A stretch of 60,597 bases of DNA from Candidatus Methanomethylophilaceae archaeon (GCA_944322255.1 CALUOK010000014.1:1-60597), one strand, 5' to 3'; shown: positions 21,956 to 49,727, numbered from the stretch's first letter. The notes: generated by a model from the letters alone, not told the origin. Numbers and translations are program-made.

Positions 21956-23631
21956 TCAGCTCCGGGAGACGACCTGAGACACTATCGTCGGGGTCTTACC
22001 GGAGAAGGCGATGCCGTAGAGGATGGTCCTCCCGACCATGCCGTGGGCGTAGTCGTTGTCGACGATCTGCTTCAGGGCCTCCTCCGCCAGGGACGCCATC
22101 TGCTCCTCCGAGGGGTCATCTACCTTGGAGCGCTTGACCTCGATGACCACGTTGGGGCCGCTGCCGCGGACCCTCCTCAGACGGATGTCGTGGTAGCCCT
22201 CGCCTGACTCGAAGTCGGCGGTTATCTCGTAATTTCCGAACAGGTTCATCAGGAGACCGGCGATGAACGCCTGGTACGAGTGCTCGTTGTCCAGCACCCT
22301 CCCGCTGATGACATGCTCGAACAGGTCCTTCAGACAGTCTCCCATGCTCTCCATGTCATCCGAGAGTATCGCCCTCGACAACCTGCGAATGGACCCCGAC
22401 ATTCCGTTGACGTTCAGCCTGTCGATGATCATCTCGCCGAAGACCCCGTACATCTCGCGGTTGGGGATGCGTAGGGAGCTGCCGGCTCCGTCTGCGGTCG
22501 TGGTGAGGTATCCCGAGAACGCCAGGACGCTGTACACCCCCTTCCCGAGATCGCTGATGTCCGCGAAAGTGACGTCCGGCTTGATGTCGGATGGTATCTG
22601 GCGTCCCGAACCCAGCGACATCATGTTGTCGTAGGTCTCCTCGTCCGGTATGCTGAGGAGGTCGGCTATGATGTCGTTTCCGCTGGTCCCGGCCCAGTAC
22701 GGGGCGGGCTCGAATCCGGAGTCCACGTATCTCAGCACGCTCCAGGGATTGTAGATGTCGGCGTTACCGAAGCGGTAGCCGTCGTACCACTCCCTTGCTT
22801 CGGTGAACTTCTCGGGATGTCCGAAGTCGGCGCACATCCCCTCCACTTCTTTCGGAGTGAATCCGAACATCTCATCGGCATCGGTGCTGAGGATGTTGTT
22901 GACACGGAGGTTGTTGAGACCGGAGAATATGCTCTCCTTGGCGATCTGCATGATCCCTGTGACGACTCCGAACTTCAACGAGCTGTTGCCCTTCAGAGCC
23001 GTCGACAGGAGATCCCTGATGAACTCGACGATGCGATACTGATGGGGTTTCCCGTATGATGAGTTCAACGGGCTATCATATTCGTCTATCAGGATGATGG
23101 TCTTCTTCCCGTAGACGGTGCTGAGCATCCACGACAGGTCGTTGAGCGAGTTCTTCAGCTCGGCACTGTTCAGGTTCCCTTCGATGGCCTTCCTGTAACG
23201 TGTCTTCGCGGACTCGGCGATGTCGGACTCCAGTATCTCGGGGAACATCTCGTAGGCCTCCCTCATCCTGACCCTGACGCTGTCTACGAACTCTCGAAAG
23301 ACGAGGTGTAGAGATTCTTCATGTCGATGGCGATGACCGGATAGACATTCTTCTCCAGATCGTCCGGACGGACATCCGATATCATGAGTCCGTCGAACCA
23401 GCTGTTGCCCCGGTATCTGAAGTTGAAGTAGGCATCCAGCATGCTCAGGTTGGTGCTCTTGCCGAACCTGCGGGGACGGAGGAACTGGAATACCGCTGTG
23501 GCATACTCGTACTCGATGTAGTCGATCAGGAGCGTCTTGTCGATGTAGTACATCCCCTTGTCGCGGATCTCCTTGAAGTCCTGGATGCTGATGGGAATCG
23601 CTCTCATCCCGCCTCGTATGGTTGCGTTCAA
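21956..23631 (-). pseudogene. AAA-ATPase-like/PD-(D/E)XK (DUF1703-type) protein, split by a frameshift
   Basis: The N-terminal part (23631-23284, 115 residues) carries DKGMYYIDKTLLIDYI and FLRPRRFGKSTNLSM, the typical start of the AAA-ATPase-like family. The C-terminal part (from 23266, 436 residues) has the ATPase-lid region and a C-terminal nuclease-fold segment IRLRRVRGSGPNVVIEVKRSK. The first frame stops after SFESS at 23284. One extra T near 23289-23290 would restore a continuous protein (SFES-FVDSVRVRMREAYE), so a single-base deletion in a T-run, or a sequencing error, explains the break. Intact members are about 550 residues, matching the sum. The function of the family is unknown; it expands in gut microbes. 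Confidence 0.88.
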
Positions 23632-26056: not shown

Positions 26057-27382
26057 ATGTGGCGCAAGATAATGGATGACCTGGTATCGTGGAAGAACAA
26101 CCCCGACAGGAAACCCCTCGTCATCCGCGGCGTACGCCAGTGCGGCAAGACGACGATCCTGAAACGCTTCGGCGAGGAGAGATACAGGAACTGCGTATAC
26201 GTCAATCTGGAGAAACAACCCGCGTTCTGCGCCGTGTTCGAGAAGGATCACGACGTCCAACGCATAGTGTCCGACATCTCGGCCCTGAGCAGGACGAAAA
26301 TCGAGAAAGAGGATACGCTGCTGATCCTCGACGAGATACAGTCGTGCCCGCGCGCGCTGGCCTCGCTGAAGTACTTCCAGGAGGACGGGAAGGGATATCA
26401 TGTCGCCTGTGCTGGTTCCCTGCTCGGGATCGTACTGGCTAGGTCGAGCTCGAAACCCGTTGGGAAGACGGAGGATCTGACGATGTACCCGATGGACTTC
26501 CATGAGTGGATGATCGCGAACGGGGAGGACCTGCTATGGGAGGCGGTCTCCGAGAACCCCGGAACCCTGGATGCGGCCCTCGCGGACCGTCTGGAGAGGC
26601 TGTACAGAGAGTACCTGTTCGTAGGAGGGATGCCGGAGGCGGTAAAGTCATGGGTCACCACCCATGACGAGGAGGAGGTGTCCAAGGCCCACGACGGGAT
26701 CCTGAACTGGTACAGCGCGGACATGCTGGGGCATGCCCCGAACGATGATTCCGACAAAATCTTCCAGGTGTGGACATCCATCCCGTCGCAGCTGTTCACA
26801 GAGACGGGGAACTTCATATTCAGCCATGTGCGCAAGGGTGGAAGGGCTCGTGAGCTGGAGGGGGCCCTGCAATGGCTCGTGGATGCGGGCCTGGTCCACA
26901 AGGTGTACAAAGTGGAGACCCCCAAGGTCCCGATGAAGCAGCAGATGGACCTCATATCCTTCAAGGCGTACCTGTGCGACGTCGGCCTCCTGGGCAGGAT
27001 GATGAACCTGACACTGGACGCCTATCTGTACCCGGAGCTGGGCCTTCTGTCCGATGACTACAGGGGCGGGCTGACCGAGAACTTCGTCCTCAACGAGATC
27101 ATCCATCTGTTCGGGGAGGACGTCTGCTTCTGGAGGTCTGGGCGCGAAGAGCTGGATTTCCTGATACAGCACAGATCCCGCATAGTTCCGGTCGAGGTCA
27201 AATCCGGAAGGAAGGTCCGCGCATCCAGTCTCGGGAAGTACATCAACGAATACGACCCGGTCGCCGCGGCCGTCGTGTCCATGAATCCTCCCAGGATCGC
27301 CAGGGTGATGCATGTCCCGCTGTACATGATATGGTCGATGAGGAAGCTGCTGAACGATCGCATCGATGAGGTCACTGGCTGA
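26057..27382 (+). CDS. AAA ATPase with DUF4143 domain (AAA_14 family)
   Basis: 441 residues. Walker A GVRQCGKTT is at 25-33, Walker B LLILDEIQ at 88-95, and the sensor segment is ACAGSLLGIVLA. The C-terminal DUF4143 half carries WRSGREELDFLIQHRSR and VPVEVKSG, a PD-(D/E)XK-like core with E, D and ExK in place. These proteins are common, patchily distributed and often in mobile or variable regions of gut archaea and bacteria. Their biochemical role is not established. The AT-rich upstream region with inverted repeats fits horizontal acquisition. The 3' end overlaps the convergent radical SAM gene by 11 bases. Confidence 0.9.
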   Translation: MWRKIMDDLVSWKNNPDRKPLVIRGVRQCGKTTILKRFGEERYRNCVYVNLEKQPAFCAVFEKDHDVQRIVSDISALSRTKIEKEDTLLILDEIQSCPRALASLKYFQEDGKGYHVACAGSLLGIVLARSSSKPVGKTEDLTMYPMDFHEWMIANGEDLLWEAVSENPGTLDAALADRLERLYREYLFVGGMPEAVKSWVTTHDEEEVSKAHDGILNWYSADMLGHAPNDDSDKIFQVWTSIPSQLFTETGNFIFSHVRKGGRARELEGALQWLVDAGLVHKVYKVETPKVPMKQQMDLISFKAYLCDVGLLGRMMNLTLDAYLYPELGLLSDDYRGGLTENFVLNEIIHLFGEDVCFWRSGREELDFLIQHRSRIVPVEVKSGRKVRASSLGKYINEYDPVAAAVVSMNPPRIARVMHVPLYMIWSMRKLLNDRIDEVTG

Positions 27383-28505
27383 CGACCTTCGGGTTCACCA
27401 GCTTCCCCACGATGGCGTCCCTGACGAACGGGTTCAGGCCGGACACGTCCCCGTCCCCGTCCAGGACCTCCTGGACGCAGGCGGAGATGTGACCGAACAC
27501 CTCCCTGAATATCCTGCAGGAGTCGTTGCCGTTGTCCTCCAGGCACCCCTCGTGGTAGGCGTCCATGCTGCAGCCCCCGTTGCAGTATCTGAAAATGGGG
27601 CACGGGGCGCACTTCTCGCGCCTCTTTATGGAACCGACCAGGATCCTCCTGAACCCCTCGGACTGGAACAGCTCCTGGATGGAGGACACCTCGTTCACGT
27701 TGCCCATGTAGAACTCCTGGGGGCAGGCCTTGGCGCACGGATAGACGGAGCCGTCCGGGTTGACGCACATCCACTTTGTGAGGCAGGACGTGTGGGCGCA
27801 GTCCGACGGAGTGGGGTCGCCCAGGTAGTTGAGTACGTAGAGGTAGTGGGGGATCAGCGGCACGTTGGCCTGGGAGTCGTGGAACCAGGCGTCGAAGGCC
27901 TCGATGCTCCCCTTTATGAACTCGTCCGCGTCGGGCACGGTGCCGTTGCACTTCGCGCATCCCGCCGGAATCACGGGCGACAGGGACAGGTTGGTGCCGT
28001 CCCTCTTGAAGAACTCGTACAGCTCCCTCTGCTTCAGCGCCGTCTCCGCCGATATGGTGGCGGACACGGAGTACTTGTTCTCCTTGGCGGACAGGATGCC
28101 CAGGGCTTTCGAGGGGTCGCCCTCCCTGAGCACGCCGTTGTACGGGCCCTCGTAGGACACTCCCACATTGATCTGCTTCTCGCGGCAGTAGGCCATGAAG
28201 CGCCTGTTGATCAGGGTCCCGTTGGTCTGGACGGTGTTCCCGCAGCGTCCGTTGTTCTTCCCGAAGTATCTCTCCTGGAGCTCCACCGCGGTCTTGTAGA
28301 ACGACATGGGCAGCGTGAGGGGCTCCCCTCCGTGCCAGATGAACCATGCGGCCTCGTACTCCTCTGAGACGAGTTTGAAAAGACGGTCGAGGGTGTCAGG
28401 GGACATCTCGCCCCTGACCCTCTCGTCAGGTGTGTGGTAGCAGTGCCTGCAACCGGTGTTGCAGTACAGCGTCGGCTTCACGACTACCGACAGATATGGC
28501 CTCAT
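27372..28505 (-). CDS. Radical SAM/SPASM peptide-modifying enzyme
   Basis: 377 residues. The radical SAM cluster motif CNTGCRHC (Cys15, Cys19, Cys22) opens the protein, followed by WHGGEPL. The C-terminal third is a SPASM/twitch region rich in cysteines: CAHTSCLTKWMC, YPCAKACPQEF, CAPCPIFRYCNGGC and GCLEDNGNDSC. It would hold two auxiliary Fe-S clusters. The architecture matches anaerobic sulfatase-maturing enzymes and the sactipeptide/ranthipeptide/AnSME-like maturases that install thioether or other crosslinks on peptides. No sulfatase is in the window, but a Cys-rich peptide gene sits 15 bases upstream on the same strand. The likely substrate is therefore that peptide (inference from position and composition). 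Confidence 0.92.
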   Translation of the reverse strand: MRPYLSVVVKPTLYCNTGCRHCYHTPDERVRGEMSPDTLDRLFKLVSEEYEAAWFIWHGGEPLTLPMSFYKTAVELQERYFGKNNGRCGNTVQTNGTLINRRFMAYCREKQINVGVSYEGPYNGVLREGDPSKALGILSAKENKYSVSATISAETALKQRELYEFFKRDGTNLSLSPVIPAGCAKCNGTVPDADEFIKGSIEAFDAWFHDSQANVPLIPHYLYVLNYLGDPTPSDCAHTSCLTKWMCVNPDGSVYPCAKACPQEFYMGNVNEVSSIQELFQSEGFRRILVGSIKRREKCAPCPIFRYCNGGCSMDAYHEGCLEDNGNDSCRIFREVFGHISACVQEVLDGDGDVSGLNPFVRDAIVGKLVNPKVVSQ

Positions 28506-28520
28506 GAGCCGATGCCCGGA

Positions 28521-28817
28521 TCAGAACGGCCAGTAGGTCCAGACACCGTTGAAACCGTTGGTGGCGTAGCAGCAGCAGATGACGCAGACGACGACACCGC
28601 CGACGAGGCATCCGTACCAGCCGGGCGTGGAGCAGCAGCCCTTGTCGTTGCAGCAGCAGTAGCCGCAGTGAGAGGCACCCTCGTGGTCGCCCTTGTCGTA
28701 GCGCTCGTTGTGGTCCGTCTCGGGGAGCCCCTCCATGGCGAACGCGATGAACGCGGACGGGGACTGGCTCTCGTACAGTGCTGTCAATTTGTCTACGGAT
28801 TCCGACTCGTACGACAT
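28521..28817 (-). CDS. Candidate RiPP precursor: 98-residue peptide with Cys-rich C-terminal core
   Basis: Residues 1-50 contain no Cys and are polar and acidic, as in a leader peptide. Residues 51-83 contain all 11 cysteines, at 51, 54, 55, 56, 61, 62, 70, 78, 81, 82 and 83. They are mixed with Gly and a hydrophobic stretch (CLVGGVVVCVICCC), ending with an aromatic tail VWTYWPF. A good GGTGA site lies seven bases upstream of the ATG. The radical SAM/SPASM gene follows after 15 bases. The reading is a precursor whose core is crosslinked by that enzyme. The alternative is a small Cys-rich membrane protein, since the hydrophobic segment could span a bilayer. No family is recognised. Confidence 0.8.
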   Translation of the reverse strand: MSYESESVDKLTALYESQSPSAFIAFAMEGLPETDHNERYDKGDHEGASHCGYCCCNDKGCCSTPGWYGCLVGGVVVCVICCCYATNGFNGVWTYWPF

Positions 28818-28824
28818 GGGATAC

Positions 28825-28880
28825 TCACCTACCGACGCTGAATTCGGTACAGTCTAGGCGTACTTTGTGCGCGTATTTAA
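28825..28880 (-). promoter_or_regulatory. Promoter and ribosome-binding site of the Cys-rich peptide operon
   Basis: A TATA-like box (minus strand TTAAATACGC, 28871-28880) lies about 60 bases before the ATG, and GGTGA (28825-28829) lies seven bases before it. This implies a short leader of about 30 bases and strong translation of the peptide relative to the enzyme, whose ATG has no clear site. Confidence 0.55.
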
Positions 28881-29120
28881 TCGTTAGGTTGTGTCCAGAC
28901 TATGCCAGACATCCGGAAAGGGGCTGTTCCGGGGGTTGCGGGCTGGAAGACGCCTCCATCCGTCAGGAGATGCCCCATGGCCGGGGAAAACCATGAGAAT
29001 AAATGAGATTACGGAGCGGTTCCGGACAGGACCCAGACGTCGCGGACGATGCCGGACGGGAAGAATCGGAAGGGTAAGTGGTTGGTCCCCCGGGACGGAA
29101 GGCCGCCCCGGAGGGTTGGA
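28881..29120. other. Intergenic region, no gene seen
   Basis: It holds the 3' flank of the MscS gene and the upstream flank of the Cys-rich peptide gene. A GC-rich partial dyad near 29087-29112 (cccccgggac paired loosely with gccccgg) may terminate the MscS transcript. No ORF or RNA gene is supported. Confidence 0.4.
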
Positions 29121-31115: not shown

Positions 31116-34100
31116 TCAGACCTCCTCCTCCTCGGAGTTCTCCACCTGGCGGTTGTAGTGCCACCACATGACGGCCATGACCGCCAGGGTCAGGGCCAGG
31201 GCGACGACGCACCATCCGCACAGGTCGCCGAGGACCAGCAGGACGGCATCGACGACCAGGGCGACCAGGGTTCCCATCCAGGCCAGCCTGTCGTACTCTC
31301 CCTCCCTGTGGACCAGGAGCAGGAACAGCATGTAGACCACCAGGACCAGGACGATGACGATCCAGGTGTAGCACCTGTCGCCGTCTCCGACCGCAGCCTC
31401 CCCGCCCTCGACGGCGGGCCTGACCAGCTCGGGTCCGACAGTGACGGTGAAGTCCCCGGCGGGCACCTTGACGGTCAGGGAGTAGTCCTTCTCCGGGTCC
31501 AGTCCGGTCCAGGTCATGTCCTCGCCGGTTCCGACCACCTGGATGGCCCCTCCGGGTCCGGGCACGGGGTTGCCGTCCTCGTCGGTGACGATGTAGATCA
31601 GTCCCTCCTCGGTGGGTACGGTCAGGGTGGTGCCGTCCTCGCCCGAGGTCACATCCCCGGTTCCGGGCATGGAGGGCACCTCGGGGAACGTGGCCCCTCC
31701 GATGACCTCTCCGTCGCCCTCCGTTCCCTGGTCCCTCTCGATCACCTGGAACGAGGTTCCGGGTGCGATGGGTCCAAGCAGCAGCGAGCCGCTGCCGTCC
31801 TCGGGGGTCCATCCGACGATGAGGCTTCCGTCGTCGCCCACCACGGCGTACTCCTTGCCGGGGGTGGTGGTGACCTTGACGAAGCATCCCTCGTCCGTCA
31901 CCACACCGCCCACGGCTGGCTCCCTGGCAGGCTTGACGTGCACCGGGCCGGTCTCCAGCTGGAAGATGCCGTCCTCGGTCTCGGCGTATATGTAGTAGTC
32001 CTCCTCAGGGTCCAGTCCGGACCAGGTGACCTCGCCTCCGGTCCCCTCGACCCACACCTGTCCGTCCGGGCCGAGCACGGGGTTGCCGTGGGAGTCCACG
32101 ACCTGGTACCTGACGCCCTCGTCGGTGTCGACGGTGACGGTGGTGTCGGTGCTGCCGACGATGTCGGCCACAGGCTTGGCGGGCACGGTGAACTCCTCCT
32201 CGACGGTGGTCTCGTTGGAGCCTGCGGGCCTGCTGACGACCTTGTAGTCCTCCCCGAACTCCAGTCCGGAGAAGTCGGCTGAGCCCTCGGTTCCGGGGAC
32301 CCATCCGCCCACGACGTTTCCGTTCGAGTCGACGACCGCGTACTCCCTGGAGGGATCCATGTTGTCAACGGTGACTGTCACACGGTCGTTGGTCGCCTGT
32401 CCAGTGACGGTGACCTCGTGGGTTCCCGTCTTCACGGTCTCGGGGCCGAACAGCAGGGCGTCCTCGCCCTCGCCGGTCTGGATCCAGAGGAAGTAGTCCT
32501 CGGACGGGTCCAGTCCGGGCCAGGTGACGTCCCCTCCGGTTCCTGTGACCCACACCTCGCCGTTGGGGCCGGGGATGGAGTTGCCGTCCTTGTCGGTCAG
32601 CATGTACTTCTTGTTGGAGTCCTCGGTGGTGACCGTCAGGCTGTCGCTGTCGGAGGTCACCCTGGACGGCATGATCGGGACGTCCACGTTCTTGTCGTAG
32701 ACGGTCTCGCCCGTCGCGGGGTCCCTTCCCTCGATCACGTAGTCGCCCTCGGGGAGCGGTCCGAAGGACACCTGCCCGTCTGTCGGCGAGGTCCAGTCGA
32801 ACACTACGTTGCCGTTCTCGTCGACCACGCGATACTCCCATCCGTTCTCGTCGTCCACGTGTATGTACACCTGGTCGTGCTTGGTGATGCCGGTGACGTT
32901 CGCGTCCATGGGCGGCCTGACCATCTGTGGTCCGACTTCCAGCTTCATTCCGTCCTTCTCGGACGTTGCGGTTGCGTAGTAGGTCTCGTTGGGGTCCAGT
33001 CCGGACACGGTGTGCTCGGATCCGTCGCCGGTGAAGGTGGCGACCACCTTTCCGGCGGAGTCGGTGATCTCGTACCTGACACCCTGCTCGGTGGCGATGG
33101 TGACGCTCTCGGAAGATGTTCCGGTGACCACGATCTCCGGCTCCTCCGGCGTCTCCACGGTCTCCTCGACGGTGACGGTGGTGGATCCGGGGGCCCTGCT
33201 GACGACCTCGTAGTCCTGTCCGGGCTCCAGGGGACCGAACACGATCTCCCCGGTACCGGACTCCCACTCGGGGTAGACCAGGTTGCCGGACTCGTCGCGG
33301 ATGTTGTACTCCTTTCCGGCCTCGGGCTTGACGGTGATGTAGATCTTGTCATCGTCGCCAATCTCCGGGTCGACGTCTGTGCCGGACGAGGTGCCTCCTC
33401 CGCCTCCGCCGTGGGACGGGTTGTCGGGTTCCGGCTCCGGTTCAGGTTCCGGTTCGACTGGTTCCGGACTCGGCGGGTTGGTGCTGTTGGAAGTGTTGAC
33501 GTTGCTGGGTCCGGAACCTCCGGTGTATCCGGGATCGCCGCTGACGGACATTCCGGGGCTGCCTCCCTGACCGGGAACCATGGAGCCTCCGGTGGCTGCG
33601 GGCCTGAACCCTGCGTTGGGTCCGACGGGCTTGGAACCCGTTCCTCCGTTGCCTCCTGCCCCAGAACCGGGGGCGTCGCCTCCGTTGCCTCCGGGGGATC
33701 CCGTGAAGTCGGTGTCCTCGGAGCTGATGGACGAACCGGGGGCGTCCACGGTGTTGCCGGCGTCTCCGCCGTCCCCTCCGTCACCGTCTCCGGCTCCGTC
33801 GCCTCCGTCTCCTCCCTGGCCGGCGACGACATCGGTTCCGTTGCCGTCGGCACCGGGGTTCAGGTCGATGAGACTGTCGCCCTCGATGTCGATGGCGGAT
33901 CCTCCGACGCCTCCGTCGGCCCCGTCCTCCGTGGGTCCGGATGTTCCGTCGTCCTGGTTACCATCGGAGGCGCCCTGGCCTCCCTGGCCTCCGTTGCCTC
34001 CGCCGATCGTTCCGCCGTTGGTCTCGACTCCGGACGGCTTGCCGCCGATTCCGGAACCTCCCTGGCCTCCCTGTCCGGCGGTGGATCCCGGATCATTTCC

Positions 34101-37100
34101 ATCATCACTGGGCGACTGGGCGTCAGCGCCGGTTCCTCCGTCTCCTCCCTGGACGGTTCCGCCGTTGACCTCGACCCTTCCCGTCGTGTCGATTCCGGAG
34201 CCTCCGTTGCCTCCGGGAGCTCCGTCGGCAGGCGTGCCCGTGCTGGAACCGTCGGCTTCAGGACCTCCCTGGCCTCCGTTGCCTCCGGAGACCGTTCCGT
34301 CCTGGTTGACGGTGACATCGGCTCCTCCGGTGATTCCTGAACCTCCGTTGCCTCCGGGGCCGGCGGCGTTGTCGCCTCCGTTGCCTCCGGAGACCGTTCC
34401 GTCCTCGACGGTCACCGGGATGTCGGATTCGATACCGGCACCGCCGGCGCCTCCGGTTCCCTCAGTCGTGGCACCTTCAGAGGTGACCTCGTGTCCGTTG
34501 CCTCCTGTGATGGTCGTGTTGCCATCGACGGTAATCGATCCTCCTGGGACCGAAGGGTCCACGGAGATGGCGGGAGCACCGTCGGGATGGCTGCTGCCGG
34601 AACCGTCGACGAACCCGTCGCCTCCGATGATGTTTCCGCCGCCGGTGATGGTGACGTCCACACCGGTTCCTGCGGGAGTGGTTGTATCGTCGCCTTCGTG
34701 TGTTATCTCGATAGCCGGCTCGCCGGGTTTTCCAGTGATGGTGTGACCGCCTGTGTCGATGACCACCTTCCCGAGGTCGTCGGGGATGGTGAGGGTTCCC
34801 TCAACATCATCCTTCACGGTGATGTGGATGGTTCCGTCGGGATCCTGAGTGACATCCACCTTGTCCTTATCGGCATCAGCCCAACCGTCTGTGATCTCGT
34901 TCTTGATTACATCAAGGCTGCTCTGATCCTTCACTGTGGCTCCGTCGGGTCCGTTGACACCGTCGGCCCCTCCGCTCGGGGAGGTTCCGCCCTGGCCTCC
35001 CTTGGCGGGCTGGCCGTCATCTCCGGCAACACCGGCTCCTGCGGCGCCTCCGTTGCCCGCGGTTCCGGGAGCTCCTGTGACGGATCCCCCGTTGCCTCCG
35101 GGACCGCCCTGTCCGGATCCGGACGCGGTAGGCTTGTCATTAGCATCCGTATTAAGAGAGTCGCCTCCGGCACCTCCGTCTCCTGCGACGGCCGATCCGG
35201 GCCTGCTGCCGTTCGGCAGTGTGACGTCTCCGCCGTTCCCTCCCTGGCCTCCGGCACCTCCGTTGGACTCTTCGGAGTCACCACCGTTTCCAGTTCCGCC
35301 GTTTCCGGCGTCGCCTCCGTTGCCTCCGGAGATGACCCCGCCTGTGATCTGGGAACCCGTGGGCGTGGAGACTGGCTTGCCGCCCTGGCCTCCGTTGCCT
35401 CCGCTGCCTCCAGCGCCGAGGTCATTGTCGGCCCCGTTGCCTCCGGCACCTCCGTTGCCTCCTGAGATGTCCGAGTCGGTTGAGTTGATGGTGGTTCCGG
35501 GCGCGGTTCCAGCGCCTCCGTCACCACCGTCGCCTCCGGTGTTGCCTGCACCGTTGTCATCGGTTCCTCCTCCGTTTCCAGCGTCGCCTCCGTTGCCTCC
35601 GACCAGGTCGGACCTGTCGGCGGTCACGTTGGAGGATGGGGCGCTGACAGCGGGACCTCCGTTGCCTCCGTCCCCGCCGGGACCGTCGGAATCGGATGCT
35701 CCGTTGCCTCCGTTGCCTCCGTTGAGCTGGGAGTCGTCTATGTCGACCCTTCCGCCTCCGGTGACGTCCACGGCCGCGCCTCCGTCACCACCGTCGGATC
35801 CGGATCCTGCGAGGGCGTCGCCTCCGTCTCCTGCGTTGACGACACTGTCCTTGATGGTCACGGGCACGGTGGATTCGATTCCAGCGCCTCCCTGGCCACC
35901 TTCCGGCCTCTCGGATGTGCCGCCGGCCCCGTCGCCACCGTTCACGGTGATTCCGGGACCGATGCTGATGGATCCTCCGGCGACGCCGTCTCCGACGGAC
36001 ACTCCGGGCATGCCGTTGCCGTCGGCACCTGTTCCTCCGGAGACCTCCGAGCCTGCGATGGGCTTGCCTTCCTCGTCCTCGCTGACGATGGAAACGTCCG
36101 CACCGGTCCCTCCGTCGACGTGATCGATGGAGATGGCCGGACCGTCAGGGTTCTTCACATCGTTGCCGTTGAGGTCTATGGTGACCTTCCCCACGTTATC
36201 GGGGATGACGATGCCGTTGCTGACTTCGCCGTCGATCTCTATGACGAATCCCTTATCCGGGTCGTACCTGACATCGCTTTTGTCGATATGGAAACCGGTC
36301 TCGGTGTTCGCGCTGTTGACCTTCTCGAGGAAATCGGCTATGCCGTCCTCGGACACGCCGGACACGGCACCGTTTCCGGGCCTGCCCCCCGGGCTTCCGG
36401 TTCCGGCGTTGCCCCCGGTGGTGTTGGAACCTGTTCCGGCGTCACCGCCGTCCCCTCCGGGTCCCTGGACATCGCCGGGACCTTTGCCTCCGTCGCCTCC
36501 GTCGCCTCCGACGGTCTTGTCGGGGGTTCCCGGCCCGGTCTTGTCACCGGCGTCACCGCCGGCTCCGGGCATACCATTACCGGTGGTGGAACCTCCTGCA
36601 CCTCCGTTTCCGGTGGTGACGTTGTCGGGGGTGCTACCGGACGGGACGTTCACCCCGCCTCCGTTGCCTCCGGCCCCGCCCTGGCCGTTATTGGAGTCTC
36701 CTCCGGCCCCGGCGTCACCTCCGGACATGTCGCCGTCGGTGACCGTGACGTTGCCGTCGCTCTCGATGGGGGATGCGCCGTCTCCTCCGTCGCCTCCGCT
36801 GCCGGTTCCGGTTGCGTCGCCTCCCTGGGCTCCGTCTCCTCCGGTAAGGTCGCTGTTGCCGGATGTGACCTTGTCACCGCCGTTCACAGCGTGACCTCCG
36901 TCTCCTCCGTCTCCTCCGCTGCCGGTTCCGGTTGCGTCGCCTCCCTGGGCTCCGTCTCCTCCGGTCGCGGTGGAGTTGTCGATCTCGACTGTCCCGGTCA
37001 CATCGACGGCATCGCCGCCCTGGCCTCCTGTACCGGCCTGACCGTTCTCGGAGTCGCCTCCGACCCCGGCGTTTCCGCCTGTGATGACGGAGTCGTCGAT

Positions 37101-40100
37101 GTCCGTGTCGCCGACGATGGAGGAGATTCCATCCCCACCCGCGCCACCGGCGCCTCCGGGCGTATCGCCCTTGCCGTCGCCTCCTTCGCCTCCCTGGCCT
37201 CCGCCCACGGTGGATCCGTTGGAGACCTCGGCGTCCTGGGCGCCGTCGATTCCGGTTCCGCCCTGACCGCCGTCTCCGGCGGGAGCGGTCCCTGTTCCAT
37301 TACCGCCGTCTCCGGCGTCCCCGCCGGTTACGGTGGAGTTGTCGACGACCACGTTGTCGGGGTATCCAGACACTCCGGATCCTCCGTTCCCTCCGTCGGA
37401 GCCAGGAGCTTCATTGCCATCGGCCTTCCCGCCCCCGTCTCCTCCGGAGACCTCGGATCCTCCCGAGATTGTGACATCGCCTCCGTCGGTGACGATTCCG
37501 TCGCCTCCGTCACCGGACACGACCTTGTCAGAGCCTGTCGTGGAGCCGTACCCTCCGTCTCCTCCGGAGACCTTTCCTCCATCGGTGACGGTGACGTCCT
37601 CTGTGGTCTCTATACCGGCGCCTCCGGCGCCTCCGTTGCCGTTCTGGGAACTGCCTCCGTCTCCTCCGGAGACCTTTCCCCCATCGGTGACGGTGATCGG
37701 GACGTCGGCGTCGATTCCCGCGCCTCCGGCTCCCGCGTTACCGTCCTCGAGCGGAGAGCCTGCTCCTGCGCCGTCTCCTCCTACCACCTCGACTCCGCCG
37801 TTGACGGTGATCGAGCCGTTGGGGACTGTGGGGTCCACGGATATGGCAGGGGAACCGTCGGGATGGCTGTCGCTGGGATTCTCCGTGTCCATGAAACCGT
37901 CTCCGCCGGTGATGGTGCCGCCGACGGTGGGGTTGCTGTTGATGATGTCCACGACCACGCCGGTTCTGGCGGGTGCGTCTTCCCCAGCAGGTACGTGTAC
38001 GACCTCGATGGCGGGCTCACCTGGCTTTCCGGCGATATTGTGCCCGTTCATGTCGACTGTGACCTTGCCCAGGTCGTCGGGGATCGTGAGTGTTCCCTCG
38101 ATGTCGTCCTCCAGTTTGATCACATATCCCTTCTCGGGATCGAACGTGACTGTCACGTCCTTCTTGTCCTCGTCAGAGAGTCCTTCTGTGATTCTGTCTA
38201 TGGCCCCCTCAAGACCTTCATCTGAGGGTGCCTGAGGGGCGGATGTTCCACTGTTTCCATTGTTTCCGGGTGCTGCATCATTACTAGATGTTCCGGCCGT
38301 TCCACCGGCACCTCCGTTTCCTTCATCGGAGTTTCCGCCAGAACCGCCGTTTCCAGATGACCCTGTGGCCCCGTTGCCTCTACCTCCGGCCCCTCCGGCA
38401 CCGCCGTCTGTATCGGTACCGTGTCCGGCACCTCCACTGCCTCCGTCGCCGGCGGAACCCCTGTCGGTGTCTCCTCCGGCTCCTCCGGCTCCTCCAGTGG
38501 CGGCAGGTTTGTCGTCAGGTTCACTCTGAGAACCAGTGTTGGTGGCATTGCCGCCGGCACCTCCGTCTCCGGCTGAGACATCGGTGGAGTTGCCTGCACC
38601 GGTGATCAATCCTCCGTCACCTCCATTGCCTCCGACATGATTGCCATCCGACGCTTCTGATGATGGAGTTTCATTGGCAGGTCCGTTGACGGTTCCGTTG
38701 CCTCCGTCGCCTCCGGACCCGGATTCGACGACGTCAGCATGGCTTCCACTACCGATCGATATGTCTCCGCCGTCTCCTCCGTTACCTCCGAAGCCGTTGT
38801 CGGTTATGGAGCCTCCCTCCGGCACAGTAGCCTGGGTCCCGTCGCCTCCGTTTCCTCCGTCCCCGGACACGACCTTGTCGGGTGAGCTGTTATTCGGGAT
38901 TGAGACGTCGCCTCCGTTTCCTCCGTTTCCACCGGCTGCACCGTTTCCTCCGTTTCCTCCGTTTCCACCGGCTATGTCGCCACCGGTGATCGAATCCGAG
39001 CTGGTAGAATCTGCATCCTTGTCAATGGGAGATCCACCGTCGCCTCCGTTTCCAGCGGTTCCATTGGAAGCGTCGCCTCCGTTTCCTCCGTTTCCTCCGG
39101 TGAAATCCGTATTATCGGAGTCGAGGGTGCCGCTTCCGGTAATGGCGTCGCCTCCGTTTCCTCCGGCGCCTCCATTCTGGTTCTCGCCAGTGGCGTCGTT
39201 TCCATCGCCTCCGTTTCCTCCGGATACGGTGGAGTCGTCGATCTGGACGTTACCACCGGTGTTGATGCCGGAACCTCCGTTCCCGGAAGGAGTTCCTGAT
39301 GTGCTGGCACTGTTGTTTCCGGCCCCACCGTCGCCTCCTGTGATGTGGGAGTCGTCGATGTCGATGTTCGGACTGCCAGAATCTGTTGATATTCCTGATC
39401 CTCCATTGCCGCCAGCACCGGATCCGGAGCTTCCTCCGTTACCTCCGGTGATGGTGGATCCGTCGGAGTCTATGTCGCTGGGAGTACCGGAGATTCCGTC
39501 GCCTCCGTTTCCGCCGGCTCCGGAACCTATGTTGTTACCACCGTTCCCTCCCTGGACAGCGGAGTCCTCCACAGTTACGGTACCGCCGTTGGATTCGATT
39601 CCGGATCCTCCCTCGGCAGCACCGGCCCCGCCGGAGCTCTTTCCTGCATCGCCTCCAGTGACAGAACCGTTGTTCTTGACGGTGACATCGGATGAGGATG
39701 CGATTCCATCCCCGCCTGCGCCACCAGTCTGCCCGTCGCCTCCGTTTCCACCGTTGACCACACCGCCGTTGACGGTGATTGGGATGCCCAGATCTATTCC
39801 GGCGCCTCCGGTCCCTCCGGTTCCAGATGCAGCATCGTAGCCGTCGCCTCCGTTGACGACGACGCCGGGTCCGACGGTGATGGAACCCTCGTTCGAGAAA
39901 CCGTCTTCCGCGGATATCGCGGGAGAACCTGCAGGACTTTCTGATGTCCCGTCTCCACCGTTGATCGAACCTCCTACAGAGGGCCTGCTGTTGACGATGT
40001 CGACAGCCGTTCCATTTCCATTCTCGGAACCGAACTCGATGGCCGGCTTGCCGGGCTCTCCGTTGATGTCGTGACCGTTCAGGTCGATGGTGACCTTGCC

Positions 40101-43100
40101 CCAGGTGTCGGGGATGTGGAGTGTGCCGTCGTAGTCGTCCTCCAGCTTGATCACGTATCCCTTCTCGGGGTCGTAAGTGATCTCGATGCCGTCGGATCCG
40201 GGATAGATAGCATCCTCGTTGTCTACAAGGTCCTGATAGATGTCATCGACGGTCGTGCCACTCTGCCCGTCTTCGACGGGCGCTGAGGGCACTGTGGTGC
40301 CGGGACGTCCCTGTGTATTGTCAGAACCTGTTCCTCCGTGTCCGGGTTTTCCTCCGGGAGCGCTGTCCCCGCCGTTTCCGGGCTTTCCGGTCGAGCCAGA
40401 ATCGATGCTTCCTCCGGTTCCACCGTTTCCTGGCTTCGCACTGTCGGATTCGCCTGTTGCCGTTCCTCCGGTTCCTCCGTTTCCGGCGTCCGCGTTGGAT
40501 GCCTCTCCTCCGGTTCCTCCGGTTCCTCCGGTTCCGTCGTTGGCAGTTCCTCCGTTTCCGCCGTCACCGGCAGTTGCATCGGAAGGCTTGCTGTTCTCCG
40601 GGAGCTTGACGGACCCTCCGGTTCCTCCGGTTCCTCCGTTACCGGAGGTGGATTTGTCGGGTTCGTCGCCCGGAGTGCCGCCGGAACCTCCGTTTCCGCC
40701 GTTTCCTCCGGTGATGATTCCGCCAGCGATCTGGGAGTCGCCCATGTCGATGGAGCCCTCAGACGTAGGCCACTCTATCGCGGATCCGCCGTTACCACCG
40801 TTTCCGCCTACGTCATCTTCGGTTCCTGTTTCTTCTTTGTCGCCCTTGGAGTCTCCACCGTCGCCTCCGGCTCCACCGCCTATCACGGTGTCCTTGCCGC
40901 CTATGTCGACGTCGTTGCCTCCGGATATGGCGGAACCTCCGTCGCCTCCGGACGGGGCCTTGCCGGTGTCGACGCTGCCCGCATCGCCTCCGGCTCCTCC
41001 GTTGACCTGGGAGTTCCCGGTGCCAGAGGTGTCCACGGATGCGTTGCCCTTGATCGCGTCGCCTCCGTTGCCTCCGTTACCGGTGTTGATTTCACCATCC
41101 ACAGAGCCGGCGATGCTGCCGCCTCCTCCCTGGCCTCCGGCTCCTCCGGTGACCTCGGATCCGCCTGTGACCGTGGTTGTTCCGGCTGTGCCGGCATCCT
41201 CTTTCGATTCGCCGTCAGGGATGTTGTCGACGGCTGTTCCGCCGTCGCCTCCGTTTCCTCCGGTACCATTCTCGGAGTCGCCTCCGTTTCCGGCTGAGCC
41301 TCCGGACACCGTGGAGCCGTCGATGGTGACGTCCACACCTGATACCGATCCGTCTGGCACATTGACGGCGGAACCTCCGCTTCCGCCGTCTCCTCCGTCG
41401 TTGGGGACGTCTGTCTCTTCTTCTTTATGGGAGCCGCTTCCGTCGCCTCCCTGGCCTCCGCTTCCTCCGGAGACCTCGGAGCCGTTGGTTATGTCCACGG
41501 GACCCTCGGAGACGATCGCGTCGCCTCCGTCGCCCGCCTGGCCGCCGTCGGCTGTGGTTGAATCGGTTCCGTCGCCTCCGTTTCCTCCGGAGACGTCAGA
41601 GTCGTCCACCACGACGGAGTCGGGATAGGAACCGACCTCCTGCGATTCACCACCATCTCCGACCGTGGTGGTCACTCCGGAAACCGCAGAGCCACCGTCG
41701 CCTCCCGATATTCCGGGCACAGTGACGGCGCCCTCTCCTTCGCCTGTGGTCTCTCCGCTGCCTCCGTTTCCTCCGGAAACCTCGGAGCCGTTGGTTATGT
41801 CCACGTTGCCTCCGGCGTTGATGGCGTCTCCTCCGGTTCCACCGGTTCCACCGATGCCGTCACCGTCGGCGATGTCGCCTCCGTTTCCTCCGGAGACCTT
41901 TCCGTCGTCGACGGATACGTCCCCGCCTGTGACGATACCGCTGCCTCCGGTTCCACCGGCGTTGCCATCGCCCTCGATGCCCTTTCCACCGTCGCCTCCG
42001 ATGACCTGGCCGCCGTCCTCGACTGTGACCTGGGTCCCTCCGGAGATCACTGTTTCACCTTCGACGGTACCGATGCCGATGTACCCGTCGATTCCGGCTC
42101 CGCCGTTCCCGGGAGTAGTTTGGGTGGAATTCGCGTCTCCACCAGATCCTCCCTGAACGACTGCATCTCCGGTAACCGTGATGCTGCAATCTGGAGAATC
42201 CACCAAGATTCCTGCGGACCCGTCGGTGGCAGCAGAATCGTCGCTGGCATCGGAGCCGTCCGAACCGATTACGGATCCGGGTCCGTTGATGACGAGATCT
42301 GTTCCGGTGGCGACGTCCGAACCCTGGTTCTCTTCTTTTACATCGTCGTTGATGGTGATGGCGGGCTCCCCTTCGTTGTTGCTGATGGTGTGTCCGTTGA
42401 GGTTCACTGTGACGTCACCGAGGGAGCCGGAGATCGTGACGGATTCTCCGATGTTCCCGTTCACATCAACGACGAATCCCGATTCGGAGTCGCCTGTCAC
42501 AGTGACGTTGTCACCGAAAGCCTCCTTCAGCATGTCCATGATGGAATCGTTGAAGACCTTGTCAACAGCCCCGATGAGGGAATCCATGCTGACAGGCCCA
42601 TCCGTTGGATAGGTCACTTCCTCGAGTGCATCGGTGATGGATTGCTTGATATTACTAACAGTCTCTTCATCGAATCCGAAGTCGTTGAGGATGTGCTCCA
42701 GCTTCTCCTGCATCTCGGCCTTGTAGCTGTTGAGCACCTGCTGGCCGATGTCGATCACCGACACGTCCCCGTTGGGCAGCTCGAACCTGGCGTTGCCCCG
42801 GTCGTCGGTGGCTATGGTGTGAGCAGGGATGGATTCGGTTCCGTCGAACATCACGCGGTTGCCGTTGACGTCCGTGACGTAGGTCCCGGCCCCGGCCATG
42901 ATGTCCGTGCCTGCCCCTTCTACGAGACCATCAGTTCTCCCTTCTCTGTCCGTCTCGTGGATTATGAAGTAGCTGTCTTCATAGGTTCCGCTGCTTCCAT
43001 CTGTTGTGAGTGTTCCGGTGATTGACACATCCACTTTGCCGTCTCCGGTTATTGTGTAATCCTGGGAGGCCCATGGATTTGTACCGGTTGTCTCACCCGA

Positions 43101-46100
43101 GACATCGCCATCTATGAGATTATTCGGTTTACTGACTGTGACTCCCAAGCTGTTGCTTCCTGTACCTGAGACCGCCGCAGTGATGTTCATGTCCACCTTG
43201 CCGAGCTCCGTCTGGACGAATTCCGCCTCGAATCCGGCGTAGAGCTTGTCGCCCTCATTATCGCCAGTGCCGTCGTAGATCTCGTGTCCGTGGAGCCCGT
43301 CATGGTCCTCCAGGGTCACGTTGGCTGTGCTGTTGCCCGTACCAGTTTCTGAGGGTGTCGCCACGACGCTGTTGAACCCGTGGCTGGGATCGACGTCGAG
43401 GCTCACACTGGGAGAGCCGACGACCTCCACCTTGGAACCGGACTCGATGAGCCCCACGGAGTCACTGATGTCCGATGTGACGTTCACAACCGACCCCACA
43501 GATGTTAACCCGTCCCCGTAGCCGCCCGCAGTGTTGCCGGAGACGTCACTGTTGTTCACCGTGATGGTGGAGGCACTCCCATCCTTAGGTTTCTCGATGT
43601 AGACCGCACCTCCGTCCCCCTCGGACATGTTGCCGATGATGGATGGCGGTACGTATCCATCGGATCCTTCAGCCTTGTTCTCTCCGATCGTCAGGCTTCC
43701 GCCGTCCTTGACGTAGATGGCGCTTCCGTCCCCTCCGGTCCAGTCAGGGTTCTCGGCCTTGTTGTAGTTCTGAATGGTGGTCCCGGACCCGACGGTCAGA
43801 GAGCCACCGTCCACCATGATGCCGCTTCCGGTTCCCGTATCTATGCCGTCGACGCGCTCGACCCCGTTACCGTCGATGGTAACGTCGGTCAGTGTCAGGT
43901 TTGACCCGCTGCCTATGACGAAAAGGGAACCGTTCCCGCCACCTTCGACATGGTCGATGGTGTGACCGTTACCGTCGATCACGAATTCACCGTCATCTCC
44001 CAGATTCGGAATGGTGATGGTGCCTGAATGCTCGGCATCCGCGTACATGTTCACAGTGACCTTGCTCGCACCTTCAAAGTCGTCACCGGGGTTGTTGAGG
44101 TAATCGACCAGTTCCTGGAAGGACCCGAACTGCTTGATCACGTTGGTCTGGCCATCCTTCTCGATGACCACTGTGAAAGGACTGTTGTACTGGGCTGCCG
44201 CCACGGAGATCCAGAGGCTGTTCTCGGAGTATGTGTGTCCGCCGGTGTCGATATCGTCTCCGGTCCTCGCATAGTGCCTGTTCTCTATGTCGAGGATCAC
44301 GCCTGCATCCATCCTGTCCGAGCGGAAGAACTCCACGAACCTCTTGTCCGCCTGGAGCCCCATCCACTCGTTCTTCGCGATCTGCACATCCTTGCTTGCG
44401 GTGGGAACTGAGGTGGTCCACACGCCTATGCTGCTTCCGTCCACCAGGCTTCCCCTGATGCCGAAGGTCTCGCCGTTGTTCAGACGCAGGTTCTTCTCCG
44501 TGGAGTCGGAGGCGTTCTGTTTGTTGCCCTCGATCACCAGCGGCTCGATGCTGCTGTAGTACCACTGGCCCTCAAGATTGCCGATACCTATCACGAGCCT
44601 CCCGGTCTGCTGGTAGGAACCCACGCCGCCTCCAATGTTGTCTATGATGGAACCGCCGGCAAGCTGGACGACTCCCTCCCACAGGTATATCCCTCCGGCG
44701 CCGCCGGATGCCTGGGCCCTGTTGTTGGAGATCGTTCCCCCCACTATGGTCGGTGATGATCCCACATCGTTGTGAACGAACCCTATCCCTCCGGCATAGT
44801 ATCCGGTGTTGCCGGTAATTGTACCGCCAGTCATCAGGAAGGTCGATTTTCCAGTGACACCAACACCGCCCACAGTGGTGGTCTGACCGGATGTGACGAA
44901 TCTCGTGAACCCTGTGTGACCGGTGATCATGGAGCCTTCCAAGATGTTGAGTGTGGGCTTGGCCCCGGACTGGCCTGCTCTGGGACCCACAAGCCACACC
45001 CCGCTCCCGCCGTTCTGCACCGTGCACCCGTCACCGAGCGTGAGCGTGGCGCCGTTGGTAACCAGCAGGGAGTTCTTCTCGGCTTTGCCGCTGCCGTCGA
45101 TGGTGATGTTTGTCAGAGTTACCGATACTCCGCTACCGGTGACCGTGATCAGGTCCCCAGCGGTGACTCCGCCGCGGAAGATCGTGCAGTCGTCCGCGTC
45201 GGAGGTGATGGTGACGCTGATGCTCCTGTTGAATGTGAGGGGGGAAGTCAGAGTGATGTCCGTCAACAGAGTGATGGTGGAGTTGGAGGTGGCCATGCTG
45301 TATGCATGAGCGATTGTCCTGTACGGGTTCTCACGGGACCCGTTACCGGCTGAGTCGCTTCCATAGGCACTGACATAGAGGTCGGAGTCCATCCTGAGAT
45401 AGATGTTCCCTCCGATGACTGCAGACTCAGAACTCACACGGTCGGAGTGGAAGTAACCATCTATGTTGGAATTCCCTGTACTGATCCGCACGGGCGCGGA
45501 GGCGGTCGGCACGGCAGAGGTGTAGACGCCGATGCTACTGTCGTCCGCCAACCCCCCTTGTACTTTGAACACCTTTCCGTCGAGCACCAGATTGGCGGCC
45601 GATCCGCCGATCTTGTTGCCCGTGATCTTCAGCGGTACGGTCGGATCCTGATCAGCGGTACCGATATTGATGGTCCCGGTATTGTTGTATGTCCTGACAC
45701 CCCCGCCGGTGTTGTTCTGGATGGTTCCGCCGTTGAGCGTCAGCGTCCCGTTCCACACGTAGATTGCCCCGTAGTTTCCACGGGATGTATTATTCTCAAT
45801 TGTTCCATCGTTGATGACTGCTGAAGAACCAGGAGCGAGGGTTATAGCCGAACCGTTGTTTGAAGTGTTGCCAGTGATGATTCCGCCATCCATGACCACC
45901 TTCCCGCCGCTCAGAACGGCGATTGCCCCGGCGGTGCTGTACGTCGGGTACGTGGTATAGAACATCCCTCCGCTGAAGTTCTGTATCTTTGCGCCTTCCT
46001 TGATATTGAGGGTGCCTGAGGACACCTTGATGCCTATCTGCCCGTTCTGTACGGTGGCCCTGTTATCGAGAGTGAGTGTTCCGCCGTTGATTTCGATAAG

Positions 46101-47603: not shown

Positions 47604-47610
47604 ACTAACA

Positions 47611-47654
47611 CTCCAGAACTTACCATTGTGTCCAGCCCAGTTCATATTTAATCT
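47611..47654 (-). promoter_or_regulatory. Promoter and ribosome-binding site of the giant gene
   Basis: A TATA-like box AGATTAAATATGAA (minus strand, 47641-47654) and GGAG (47611-47614), seven bases before the ATG at 47603. Further upstream the pair gctcaaatatccg (47718-47730) and gctcaaattccg (47746-47757) is a short direct repeat that might bind a regulator. Confidence 0.55.
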
Positions 47655-47873
47655 GCCGCCGGCTGCCGCGACCCTCTAACGCTTCCTATTACGCGCGTCT
47701 ATTAAAGATTTAAGCACGCTCAAATATCCGTTAAAACCTGAACATGCTCAAATTCCGCGCACACCCCCGAAAATCCCATGTTTTCCCATGTCTGGCACAT
47801 GCGTCCATCCAACATAATCCGTCCATCCGGACCATCCGCAACAATCATATCGGCCCCCGCGGAATACGGACGC

Positions 47874-48779
47874 ATGCTGGGCTACACCGTGCCGGCCTAC
47901 GGAAGGCTCTCACCCGCGGACCTCTCACTGTACCGCAGGTACTACTGCGAGACCTGCCACCAGCTCCGCGACGGCTTCGGCCTCACCGGCACCCTCACGG
48001 TCAACTACGACATGACCTTCAACACCGTCCTGCTCTGCGGGATCACCGGCCAGGCCCTCGATGTGGGACCCACCGAGAAGACCATATGCGTCCTGGAGCA
48101 CAGCAAGACCGACGCGGACCTCATGCACGCAATGGCCGCCTACACCCTGATCCTCACGAAATGGGAGCTACACGACGACGACACCGACGACCCCTCCCTC
48201 AAGAACAAAGCGATATCCCTCACCCTGAACCGCGCCATACAGAAGGCTGTCAGAGAGTATCCGGAGTACGACGCCATGGTGGGTGAGGGCTTCGAGGACC
48301 TAAGGAGGCTCGAGCTCGACGGCTGCAAGGACGCCTGCCTCATGGGCCGCACCTTCGGGAAGGGCCTGATCGGCGCACTTGAGGACATCGCCGGCGATTC
48401 CTACACCGAGGAGCTCGGAGAGGTGTTCACCGAGCTCAGCACCGCAGTCTACATCATGGACGCCATCGACGACCTGGACGAGGACTTCATGGAGGGGACC
48501 TACAACCCCCTGCTTCCCGACACCGGGTTCGTCAACGCCCGGAGGTACATCGACGGCAACGTCTTCCGCTTCACCGACCTCGTCAACCGGACGGTGGGCG
48601 GGATGCAGTCCTCGTACTCGAAGGTCAGAGGGGACATGAAGGGCAACGTCTCCCTCTGCGACAACATCGTCTACTTCGGCATACCGGAGTCCGCCCGCAG
48701 GGTGATCTCCGGCGGGTCCCAGGCGAAGGCGTCCATCAAGAACATGTTCTCCAACAGGAGCGCCAGGATGTCAGACCGA
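47874..48779 (+). CDS. DUF5685 family protein; 3' end uncertain
   Basis: About 300 residues from MLGYTVPAYGRLSPADLSLYRRYYCETC. The opening, with CETC, and the later DAIDDLDEDFMEGTYNPLL are typical of DUF5685, an all-helical family of unknown function whose Asp-rich motif recalls metal-binding isoprenoid-type folds. Family proteins end near KASIKNMF. Here that end is reached at about 48750, but no stop codon follows. The frame runs on through sequence antisense to the small Cys-rich gene and merges with the next plus-strand gene, closing only at 49727. In the next frame a TAG occurs at about 48792, so loss of a stop or a one-base indel is likely. The given end is therefore approximate. Confidence 0.75.
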
Positions 48780-49004
48780 TCCCGAGGGGTCGTAGAGCGA
48801 GCACACGTCCAACTCGAACATACCCTCGCCGGTCCTCCCGCACACCCCTCCGGAGTAGGAGGAGCAGTTCTCGCAGCACCCCGGTCTGTACCTGCCGCAT
48901 GTCCCGTCCCTGTCCGTGGGCCTCGACTCCGGGAGGCACACCCACATGTCCCCGGCGTGCCTGCAGAACCTGCAGGTGCGGCATTTGCGGTAGCTCTCGT
49001 CCAT
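48771..49004 (-). CDS. Small cysteine-rich (metal- or Fe-S-binding) protein
   Basis: 77 residues with ten cysteines: CRTCRFC at 8-14, Cys23, Cys36, CCENC at 43-47, Cys55 and Cys68. The spacing suggests one or two structural zinc or Fe-S sites. There is no membrane segment. It lies tail-to-tail with the DUF5685 gene. The long plus-strand frame running across it makes a low-complexity, Pro/Ala/Arg-rich product, typical of antisense translation, so this strand is taken as the real one. No family is recognised. Confidence 0.65.
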   Translation of the reverse strand: MDESYRKCRTCRFCRHAGDMWVCLPESRPTDRDGTCGRYRPGCCENCSSYSGGVCGRTGEGMFELDVCSLYDPSGSV

Positions 49005-49154
49005 GGTGACCCGGATGGCCCGATCCGAGAAAAAGCCGTCGGCCGGGTTCCGACCGTTCGTTCGGTGATGGACGGACGCGCCGATGCCCGGACCTCTGCG
49101 CCGGACCGGCTCCTATCGCCAGCTTTATACGCGATTTCCCGATTCCCACGGTTC

Positions 49155-49727
49155 ATGACGATCACAGTGGCCTACATGGGCATCCCCGGATCCAACTCGG
49201 AGCAGGCGGCGACGGAGTTCGCCGCCAAGATGGGATGGGACGAGTACGAACTTCTGCCCAGGGTCGACTCCAGGGGCGTCGTGGACGCCATGGACCTGGA
49301 GGGCGCCGACTACGGCGTTGTGGCCGTCGCCAACATCAACGCCGGGCCGGTGGAGGAGACCCGCATCGCCCTGGAGGGCAGGGACGACATCGAGTTCGTC
49401 CTCAGCTTCTGGGTCCCGATCCACCACTGCGTGTTCGTCAGGGAGGGCTACGACGGGCCGATCAACCACATCGCCTCCCACATCCAGGCGCTGCTCCAGA
49501 CCAAGGGGAACCTGGAGAGGCTGTTCCCCGGCACCGACAGGATCGAGGTGGAGGACACCGCCGTCGCGGCGGAGTACCTCTCCGAGGGGAAGCTCCCCGA
49601 GGACACCGCGGTGGTCTGCAGGAGGAACGCCGGCCAGATGTTCCACCTGAGGATGATCCACGAGAACATCGAGGACCGCGCCGACAACATGACCGAGTTC
49701 CACCTCCTCCGCAAGGGGTCCGCATGA
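49155..49727 (+). CDS. Prephenate dehydratase-like protein
   Basis: 190 residues. GIPGSNSEQAATEFA matches the GPxGSYSExA start of the prephenate dehydratase fold. A central FVREGYDGPINHIASHIQAL and a later VEDTAVAAEYLSEGKLPEDTAVVC match the family's Q/L and DTAxAA motifs. The usual TRF near the end reads NMTEFHLL, a departure at the active-site Arg. It may therefore act on another substrate, or bind phenylalanine/prephenate without catalysis; no ACT domain follows. A TATA-like box (ctttatac, about 49125-49132) lies 26 bases upstream. The coiled-coil gene overlaps its stop (ATGA). Confidence 0.75.
   Translation: MTITVAYMGIPGSNSEQAATEFAAKMGWDEYELLPRVDSRGVVDAMDLEGADYGVVAVANINAGPVEETRIALEGRDDIEFVLSFWVPIHHCVFVREGYDGPINHIASHIQALLQTKGNLERLFPGTDRIEVEDTAVAAEYLSEGKLPEDTAVVCRRNAGQMFHLRMIHENIEDRADNMTEFHLLRKGSA

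Follow-up and report, generated by a model that had tools for sequence, protein, structure and literature searches.

A putative three-gene RiPP-type system of the Methanomethylophilaceae comprising a Cys-rich peptide, a radical SAM/SPASM enzyme and a DUF5685 protein

Analysis of a 60,597-nucleotide stretch of DNA from a Candidatus Methanomethylophilaceae archaeon (hereafter the window) points to what may be a three-gene RiPP-type system specific to the Methanomethylophilaceae, in which a Cys-rich peptide, a radical SAM/SPASM enzyme and a DUF5685 protein would act together; we put the chances of this composite reading at about even. Two of its parts are, in our judgement, considerably safer: the sequences make it quite probable that the enzyme modifies the peptide, and we are similarly confident that DUF5685 functionally belongs with the two. 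The first-pass annotation had proposed a dedicated peptide-maturase pair, and this core held up, given the constant gene order, strict co-occurrence, a leader motif, purifying selection on the peptide and no sulfatase. Its two-gene scope proved too narrow: the third member, DUF5685, was missed, lying beyond the interval that it covered. The features are collected in Table 1.

Table 1. Positions in the window of the proposed system's genes, their parts and the inserted block
Feature	Position	Strand	Basis
Precursor-like Cys-rich peptide, 98 aa	28521..28817	-	ORF and sequence; homologs at enzyme loci
Leader-like region, residues 1-50, acidic, without Cys	28668..28817	-	Alignment and charge
Cys region, residues 51-69; C51, C55, C56 invariant	28611..28667	-	Alignment
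Hydrophobic TM-like segment, residues 69-85 (GCLVGGVVVCVICCCYA), with invariant C82 and Y84	28563..28613	-	Alignment and hydropathy
C-terminal tail, residues 86-98 (TNGFNGVWTYWPF); W96, P97 invariant	28524..28562	-	Alignment, pN/pS
Conserved block upstream of peptide gene, TATA-like TTAAATA and RBS	28818..28890	-	Compared with G014, G023
Putative maturase (radical SAM/SPASM enzyme of 377 aa)	27372..28505	-	Pfam/NCBIfam; AF2 model
CxxxCxxC radical SAM motif, residues 15-22 (CNTGCRHC)	28440..28463	-	Homolog alignment
SPASM region, residues 236-330, eight invariant Cys	27516..27800	-	Alignment
Family-specific C-terminal extension, residues 345-377; N358, V361, P372 invariant	27375..27473	-	
Inserted block with genes for an MscS-type channel, an fn3-like protein and a giant repeat protein of 5509 aa	29121..47645	-	
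DUF5685 protein, third component, all-alpha	47874..48767	+	PF18937, adjacency in relatives, AF2, Foldseek
First Asp motif, DDxxD (D101, D102, D105)	48174..48188	+	At end of helix 82-105
Second Asp motif, DxxxDxxxD (D196, D200, D204)	48459..48485	+	End of helix 179-199 and next short helix

On re-reading, the peptide ORF has no Cys in residues 1-50 and 11 in residues 51-83, as first described (positions 51, 54-56, 61-62, 70, 78 and 81-83), and the strong ribosome-binding site already remarked on, GGTAGGTGA, lies immediately 5' of its ATG. From its sequence, we infer that the conserved block upstream acts as the promoter of the peptide gene. The layout of the peptide is fixed, running from a YxxQS leader motif (Y15-x-x-Q18-S, Y and Q invariant in 48/48 homologs) through a C-x-Y-x-CC region and a hydrophobic segment to a tail ending in WPF. 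Comparison of leader and core conservation, suggested earlier as a check, found YxxQS, C51, C55, C56, C82, W96 and P97 kept; together with Y15, Q18 and Y84, these Cys, Trp and Pro residues are invariant among the 48 aligned peptides. The hydrophobic stretch described as membrane-like likewise recurs in all 48 homologs, where the best 17-mer has a mean hydropathy of 1.98-2.95 and stops 12-16 residues short of the C-terminus. Homologs have between 8 and 13 Cys in their final 50 residues, so that most Cys are individually dispensable. For 14 peptides of the same length, pN/pS was 0.27 overall, indicating purifying selection, and residues 84-98 were the most constrained part (0.14), a pattern unlike that expected of a diversifying toxin. 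The peptide had no match in Pfam, NCBIfam or the PDB, nothing was found in viral contigs, and a degenerate search using the peptide alignment gave no result. We also note that in isolate COG_1 (L157) the peptide frame continues beyond WPF with no stop. A candidate operator shared between DUF5685 and the peptide, TCTCATTTATTCTCATG, was rejected, being confined to the closest relatives.

All 61 named family loci having upstream sequence carry the peptide immediately 5' of the enzyme (60 identified by pattern plus L157; a 62nd, L173, is truncated at a contig end and was left out). At each, an encoded precursor with a conserved leader adjoins what appears to be a dedicated modifying enzyme, the arrangement that characterises a RiPP. 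When 100 related genomes were searched, peptide and enzyme were found in essentially the same set, all from the window's family; the co-occurrence check put forward earlier thus came out in favour of the pair, with the peptide always accompanied by the enzyme and no homologs spread without it. Across 390 genomes of the phylum, searching by profile gave 35 true matches, all in Methanomethylophilaceae. Two matches outside the family (G147 and G160, E ~5e-4) were rejected as chance, with five in-frame stops, and this phylum sample held no authentic peptide copy outside Methanomethylophilaceae. The carriers are rumen, colon, termite and other MAGs and include Methanomethylophilus, Methanoplasma and Methanomicula.

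All three genes were present in 48 of 60 family genomes, none in 9 and a partial set in 3, each of the latter an assembly at most 84% complete; among the genomes at least 90% complete (n=35), 33 had all three and 2 had none, joint-presence counts that are not a set of independent events because the genomes are related. Clustering of the neighbouring genes showed a divergent DUF5685 gene adjoining in 54/54 loci with enough upstream sequence. Other recurring neighbours were a cation-efflux gene (38 loci), an MFS transporter (35) and two others (31 and 27), with no universal protease or exporter among them. The earlier statement that neither a protease nor a dedicated exporter adjoins the pair therefore stands for immediate neighbours and needs qualifying for the wider locus, where these MFS and cation-efflux transporters lie within 7 kb and nothing ties either to the system. 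Since the wider synteny is partly conserved, vertical inheritance may explain part of the linkage. The idea that the locus of G053 was duplicated as a unit was rejected: across most of the 15 kb compared, identity between the copies is ~83%, which makes two strains in one MAG the likelier explanation.

In the window itself, DUF5685 is displaced from the peptide by three inserted genes. In the close relatives G014 and G023 it stands directly beside the peptide, and we therefore place the inserted block outside the system. The largest insert (31116-47645) encodes a 5509-aa Gly/Asn-rich, surface-like repeat protein with a hydrophobic C-terminal region. In another genus, NifH-like nitrogenase-like genes lie between DUF5685 and the peptide (L231:3916-7358 of G033), a second independent insertion at this site. 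Elsewhere in the window, at 21956-23631, an AAA-ATPase-like gene, perhaps an accessory gene that has suffered a frameshift, is apparently split into two ORFs (21956-23266 and 23284-23631).

The enzyme had been identified as a radical SAM/SPASM protein with the motif CNTGCRHC, beginning 15 nt after the peptide stop, and both Pfam domains are indeed over cut-off (Radical_SAM, 43 bits; SPASM, 35 bits). CxxxCxxC is kept in 47 of 48 homologs and lost in L101. In G032, the homolog at L230:7099-8199 is without the CxxxCxxC region (~21 residues gone) while the peptide gene and DUF5685 are kept, possibly a dead enzyme or an assembly error. The invariant SPASM Cys fall into two sets (236, 241, 257, 312 and 299, 302, 308, 330) that correspond by alignment to the two auxiliary-cluster sets of anSME (ligands from PMC5682303). 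The AF2 model (pLDDT 86.8) has anSMEcpe as its best PDB fold match (TM 0.77/0.80), and the closest solved relatives by sequence are also anSMEcpe. Residues 345-377 are mostly beyond the range matched by known models and could be a peptide-binding element. At the other end, the radical SAM domain begins at residue ~4-10 with no domain ahead of it, leaving no room for an RRE.

DUF5685 matches PF18937 well (140.8 bits against a gathering cut-off of 26.7), as do 53/53 homologs, and both Asp motifs are invariant in the 53 sequences. In its AF2 model (pLDDT 90), the two motifs sit at helix ends four helices apart, which we take to be their placement on helices D and H of prenyl synthases. The motifs and a suspected relation to isoprenoid synthases were noted from the alignment before the fold search was run, and in the PDB matches from Foldseek almost every top-ranking structure was then an isoprenyl diphosphate synthase, a (dehydro)squalene synthase or UbiA, although the scores were modest (E 0.02 at best; highest TM 0.55/0.59, for 2azj). 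A comparison of the DUF5685 profile with archaeal prenyl synthases gave no sequence-level similarity (hhalign probability 0.1), so that the likeness is structural only and is no proof of activity; the model suggests a resemblance to class I isoprenoid synthases by fold. In the window, the DUF5685 frame runs unstopped into the downstream gene (47778-49727; MTITVAYMGIPGSNS...); G014 and G023 have a separate ORF for each. The DUF5685 genes of bacteria adjoin J-domain/DnaK genes, not peptides; J-domain neighbours were seen in bacteria and in G081 (L237, L238, L239, L229), and in G081 DnaK as well, so that DUF5685 and the J-domain gene form a conserved pairing there.

In the mechanism that we propose, the enzyme would recognise the YxxQS leader and crosslink the peptide by SAM radical chemistry, most likely at the invariant C51/C55/C56/C82, or else in the aromatic C-terminal tail. 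DUF5685 would act on the same peptide, most plausibly by attaching an isoprenoid to the invariant W96, third from the C-terminus, or to a conserved Cys. The product would remain in or on the membrane and serve the producer itself, as its single-copy, vertically inherited genes and purifying selection suggest, unlike a diversifying bacteriocin. Taken to its full extent, with DUF5685 acting on W96 or on a conserved Cys in a core embedded in the membrane, the locus would specify a peptide natural product carrying both radical SAM crosslinks and an isoprenyl group, the first from archaea, and DUF5685 would be a new branch of isoprenoid-synthase-like peptide prenyltransferases; we offer this only tentatively and think it doubtful. 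Counting against the proposed mechanism are the bacterial copies beside J-domain/DnaK genes and the modest fold match.

Of the alternatives, the one that survives best, though we consider it rather unlikely, is that aromatic C-C crosslinks of the cyclophane or dynobactin kind form in the tail (GFNGVWTYWPF), with the Cys contributing to folding, metal binding or membrane packing. Among NCBIfam models DynA fits the enzyme best, yet the score is 160.7 bits against a cut-off of 450, and while no other part of the peptide is as constrained as the tail, with W96-P97 invariant, the g2/g5/g6 peptides swap much of it for Cys, and C51/C55/C56/C82 are themselves invariant. The nearest enzymes outside the family (~26-33% identity; Lachnospiraceae, Ruminococcus, DPANN archaea and others) do speak for aromatic chemistry and against a Cys-based crosslink, since, where a candidate is readable, they adjoin small ORFs that carry Y/H-x-D repeats and few Cys or none, and the DPANN cases reach 280-324 bits to DynA. 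The DynA-like enzymes of DPANN and other archaea (L185, L186, L190 and L192), scoring in that range and so below the cut-off, lie beside peptides full of Y/H-x-D repeats and may constitute an undescribed archaeal group of crosslinked peptides. In two Lachnospiraceae loci (L182, L183), the enzyme is followed by an ORF with YSDYM repeats and, after them, a hydrophobic segment.

Less likely still is a sactipeptide- or ranthipeptide-like thioether RiPP, in which the product would be a secreted antimicrobial with Cys thioethers and DUF5685 an incidental neighbour. The Cys-rich core, the leader-core layout and the adjoining SPASM enzyme are in its favour, and the first-pass annotation had accordingly suggested kinship to such maturases, but this did not withstand comparison: the enzyme lacks an N-terminal region of RRE size, and the thioether-maturase models all score far below cut-off (PapB 60.6 against 340, SCIFF 58.4 against 425, StsB and others also below). 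Purifying rather than diversifying selection on the peptide, the strict linkage of DUF5685 and the lack of a universal protease or exporter at the loci also weigh against it.

We consider it improbable that the peptide stays unmodified, or binds metal, as a small membrane protein while the enzyme acts on another substrate, or that DUF5685 has a chaperone- or Fe-S-related role. The conserved Cys clusters and TM-like segment of the peptide would fit the first idea, and C25xxC28H and C72 of DUF5685, along with its bacterial copies by DnaJ/DnaK, the second, but an unvarying peptide-enzyme order and a conserved motif in the leader are what substrate-enzyme pairs typically show. Formylglycine-type chemistry, whether its target were the peptide or a sulfatase, can be dismissed as very improbable despite the anSMEcpe likeness in structure and sequence, because the genome has no PF00884 sulfatase (sulfatases beside the enzyme, named earlier as an outcome speaking against the pair, did not appear), because all 48 family enzymes have A/G/S directly after the YPC cysteine, at the position of anSMEcpe Asp277, which we take to be the anSME catalytic base, and because the sulfatase maturase equivalog model scores 145.3 against a cut-off of 349.45.

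Archaeal RiPPs are little known, and the open-access literature searched held no earlier description of this system. It is near-universal in one family of host-associated methanogens (gut, rumen, termite), which, together with the purifying selection, makes a core cellular role likely. A family of unknown function that occurs also in Firmicutes and Thermotoga, DUF5685, gains a testable function, and the locus as a whole suggests an undescribed archaeal route to modified, possibly lipid-tagged peptides.

How does the proposed three-gene system compare with those already known? We do not file it under sactipeptides, ranthipeptides, anSME, DynA, TIGR04083 or ComQ, because the defining features tested for each were lacking. 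With anSME (TIGR03942) the enzyme shares the radical SAM and SPASM domains, all eight auxiliary Cys and the fold; it differs at the Asp277 position and in its partner, here a Cys-rich peptide in a genome without a sulfatase. Like DynA (NF041298), its best NCBIfam match, it has a short N-terminus and a dedicated small peptide, but this family is archaeal, and its peptide is Cys-rich and TM-like and comes with DUF5685. TIGR04083 is likewise a predicted peptide maturase, named for methanogens, of which the enzyme is no member by score (108.6 against a cut-off of 300 bits). Sactipeptide and ranthipeptide maturases (CteB, PapB, SCIFF) also pair a SPASM enzyme with a Cys-rich precursor, and differ from the enzyme here in their N-terminal RRE, a feature that is frequent among them and not a universal criterion.

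For DUF5685, the closest parallels are ComQ-ComX and PalQ-PalX, in which an enzyme of isoprenoid-synthase fold prenylates a Trp near the C-terminus of a small RiPP (PMC5331326, PMC10853753); in ComX(RO-E-2), this Trp must stand second to fourth from the end for ComQ (PMC5331326), and according to a 2026 review all characterised ComQ/PalQ-type enzymes act on Trp (PMC13290415). The locus shares with them a FARM (DDxxD) and a small peptide with a Trp near its C-terminus, W96 being third from the end and invariant in 48, and DUF5685 may share their isoprenoid-synthase fold. The likeness is drawn from fold and motifs, and the second motif of DUF5685 is a full Asp motif. ComQ/PalQ-type enzymes share a Gln immediately before this second motif, the SARM (PMC13290415), whereas DUF5685 has YxM before D196 (YxMD); as this Gln is lacking, we hold prenylation of the peptide, by analogy, to be plausible, though it is hardly the likelier outcome. 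No ComP/ComA-like neighbour was seen to recur at the family loci. Unlike ComQ-ComX and PalQ-PalX, the locus described here adds a radical SAM enzyme.
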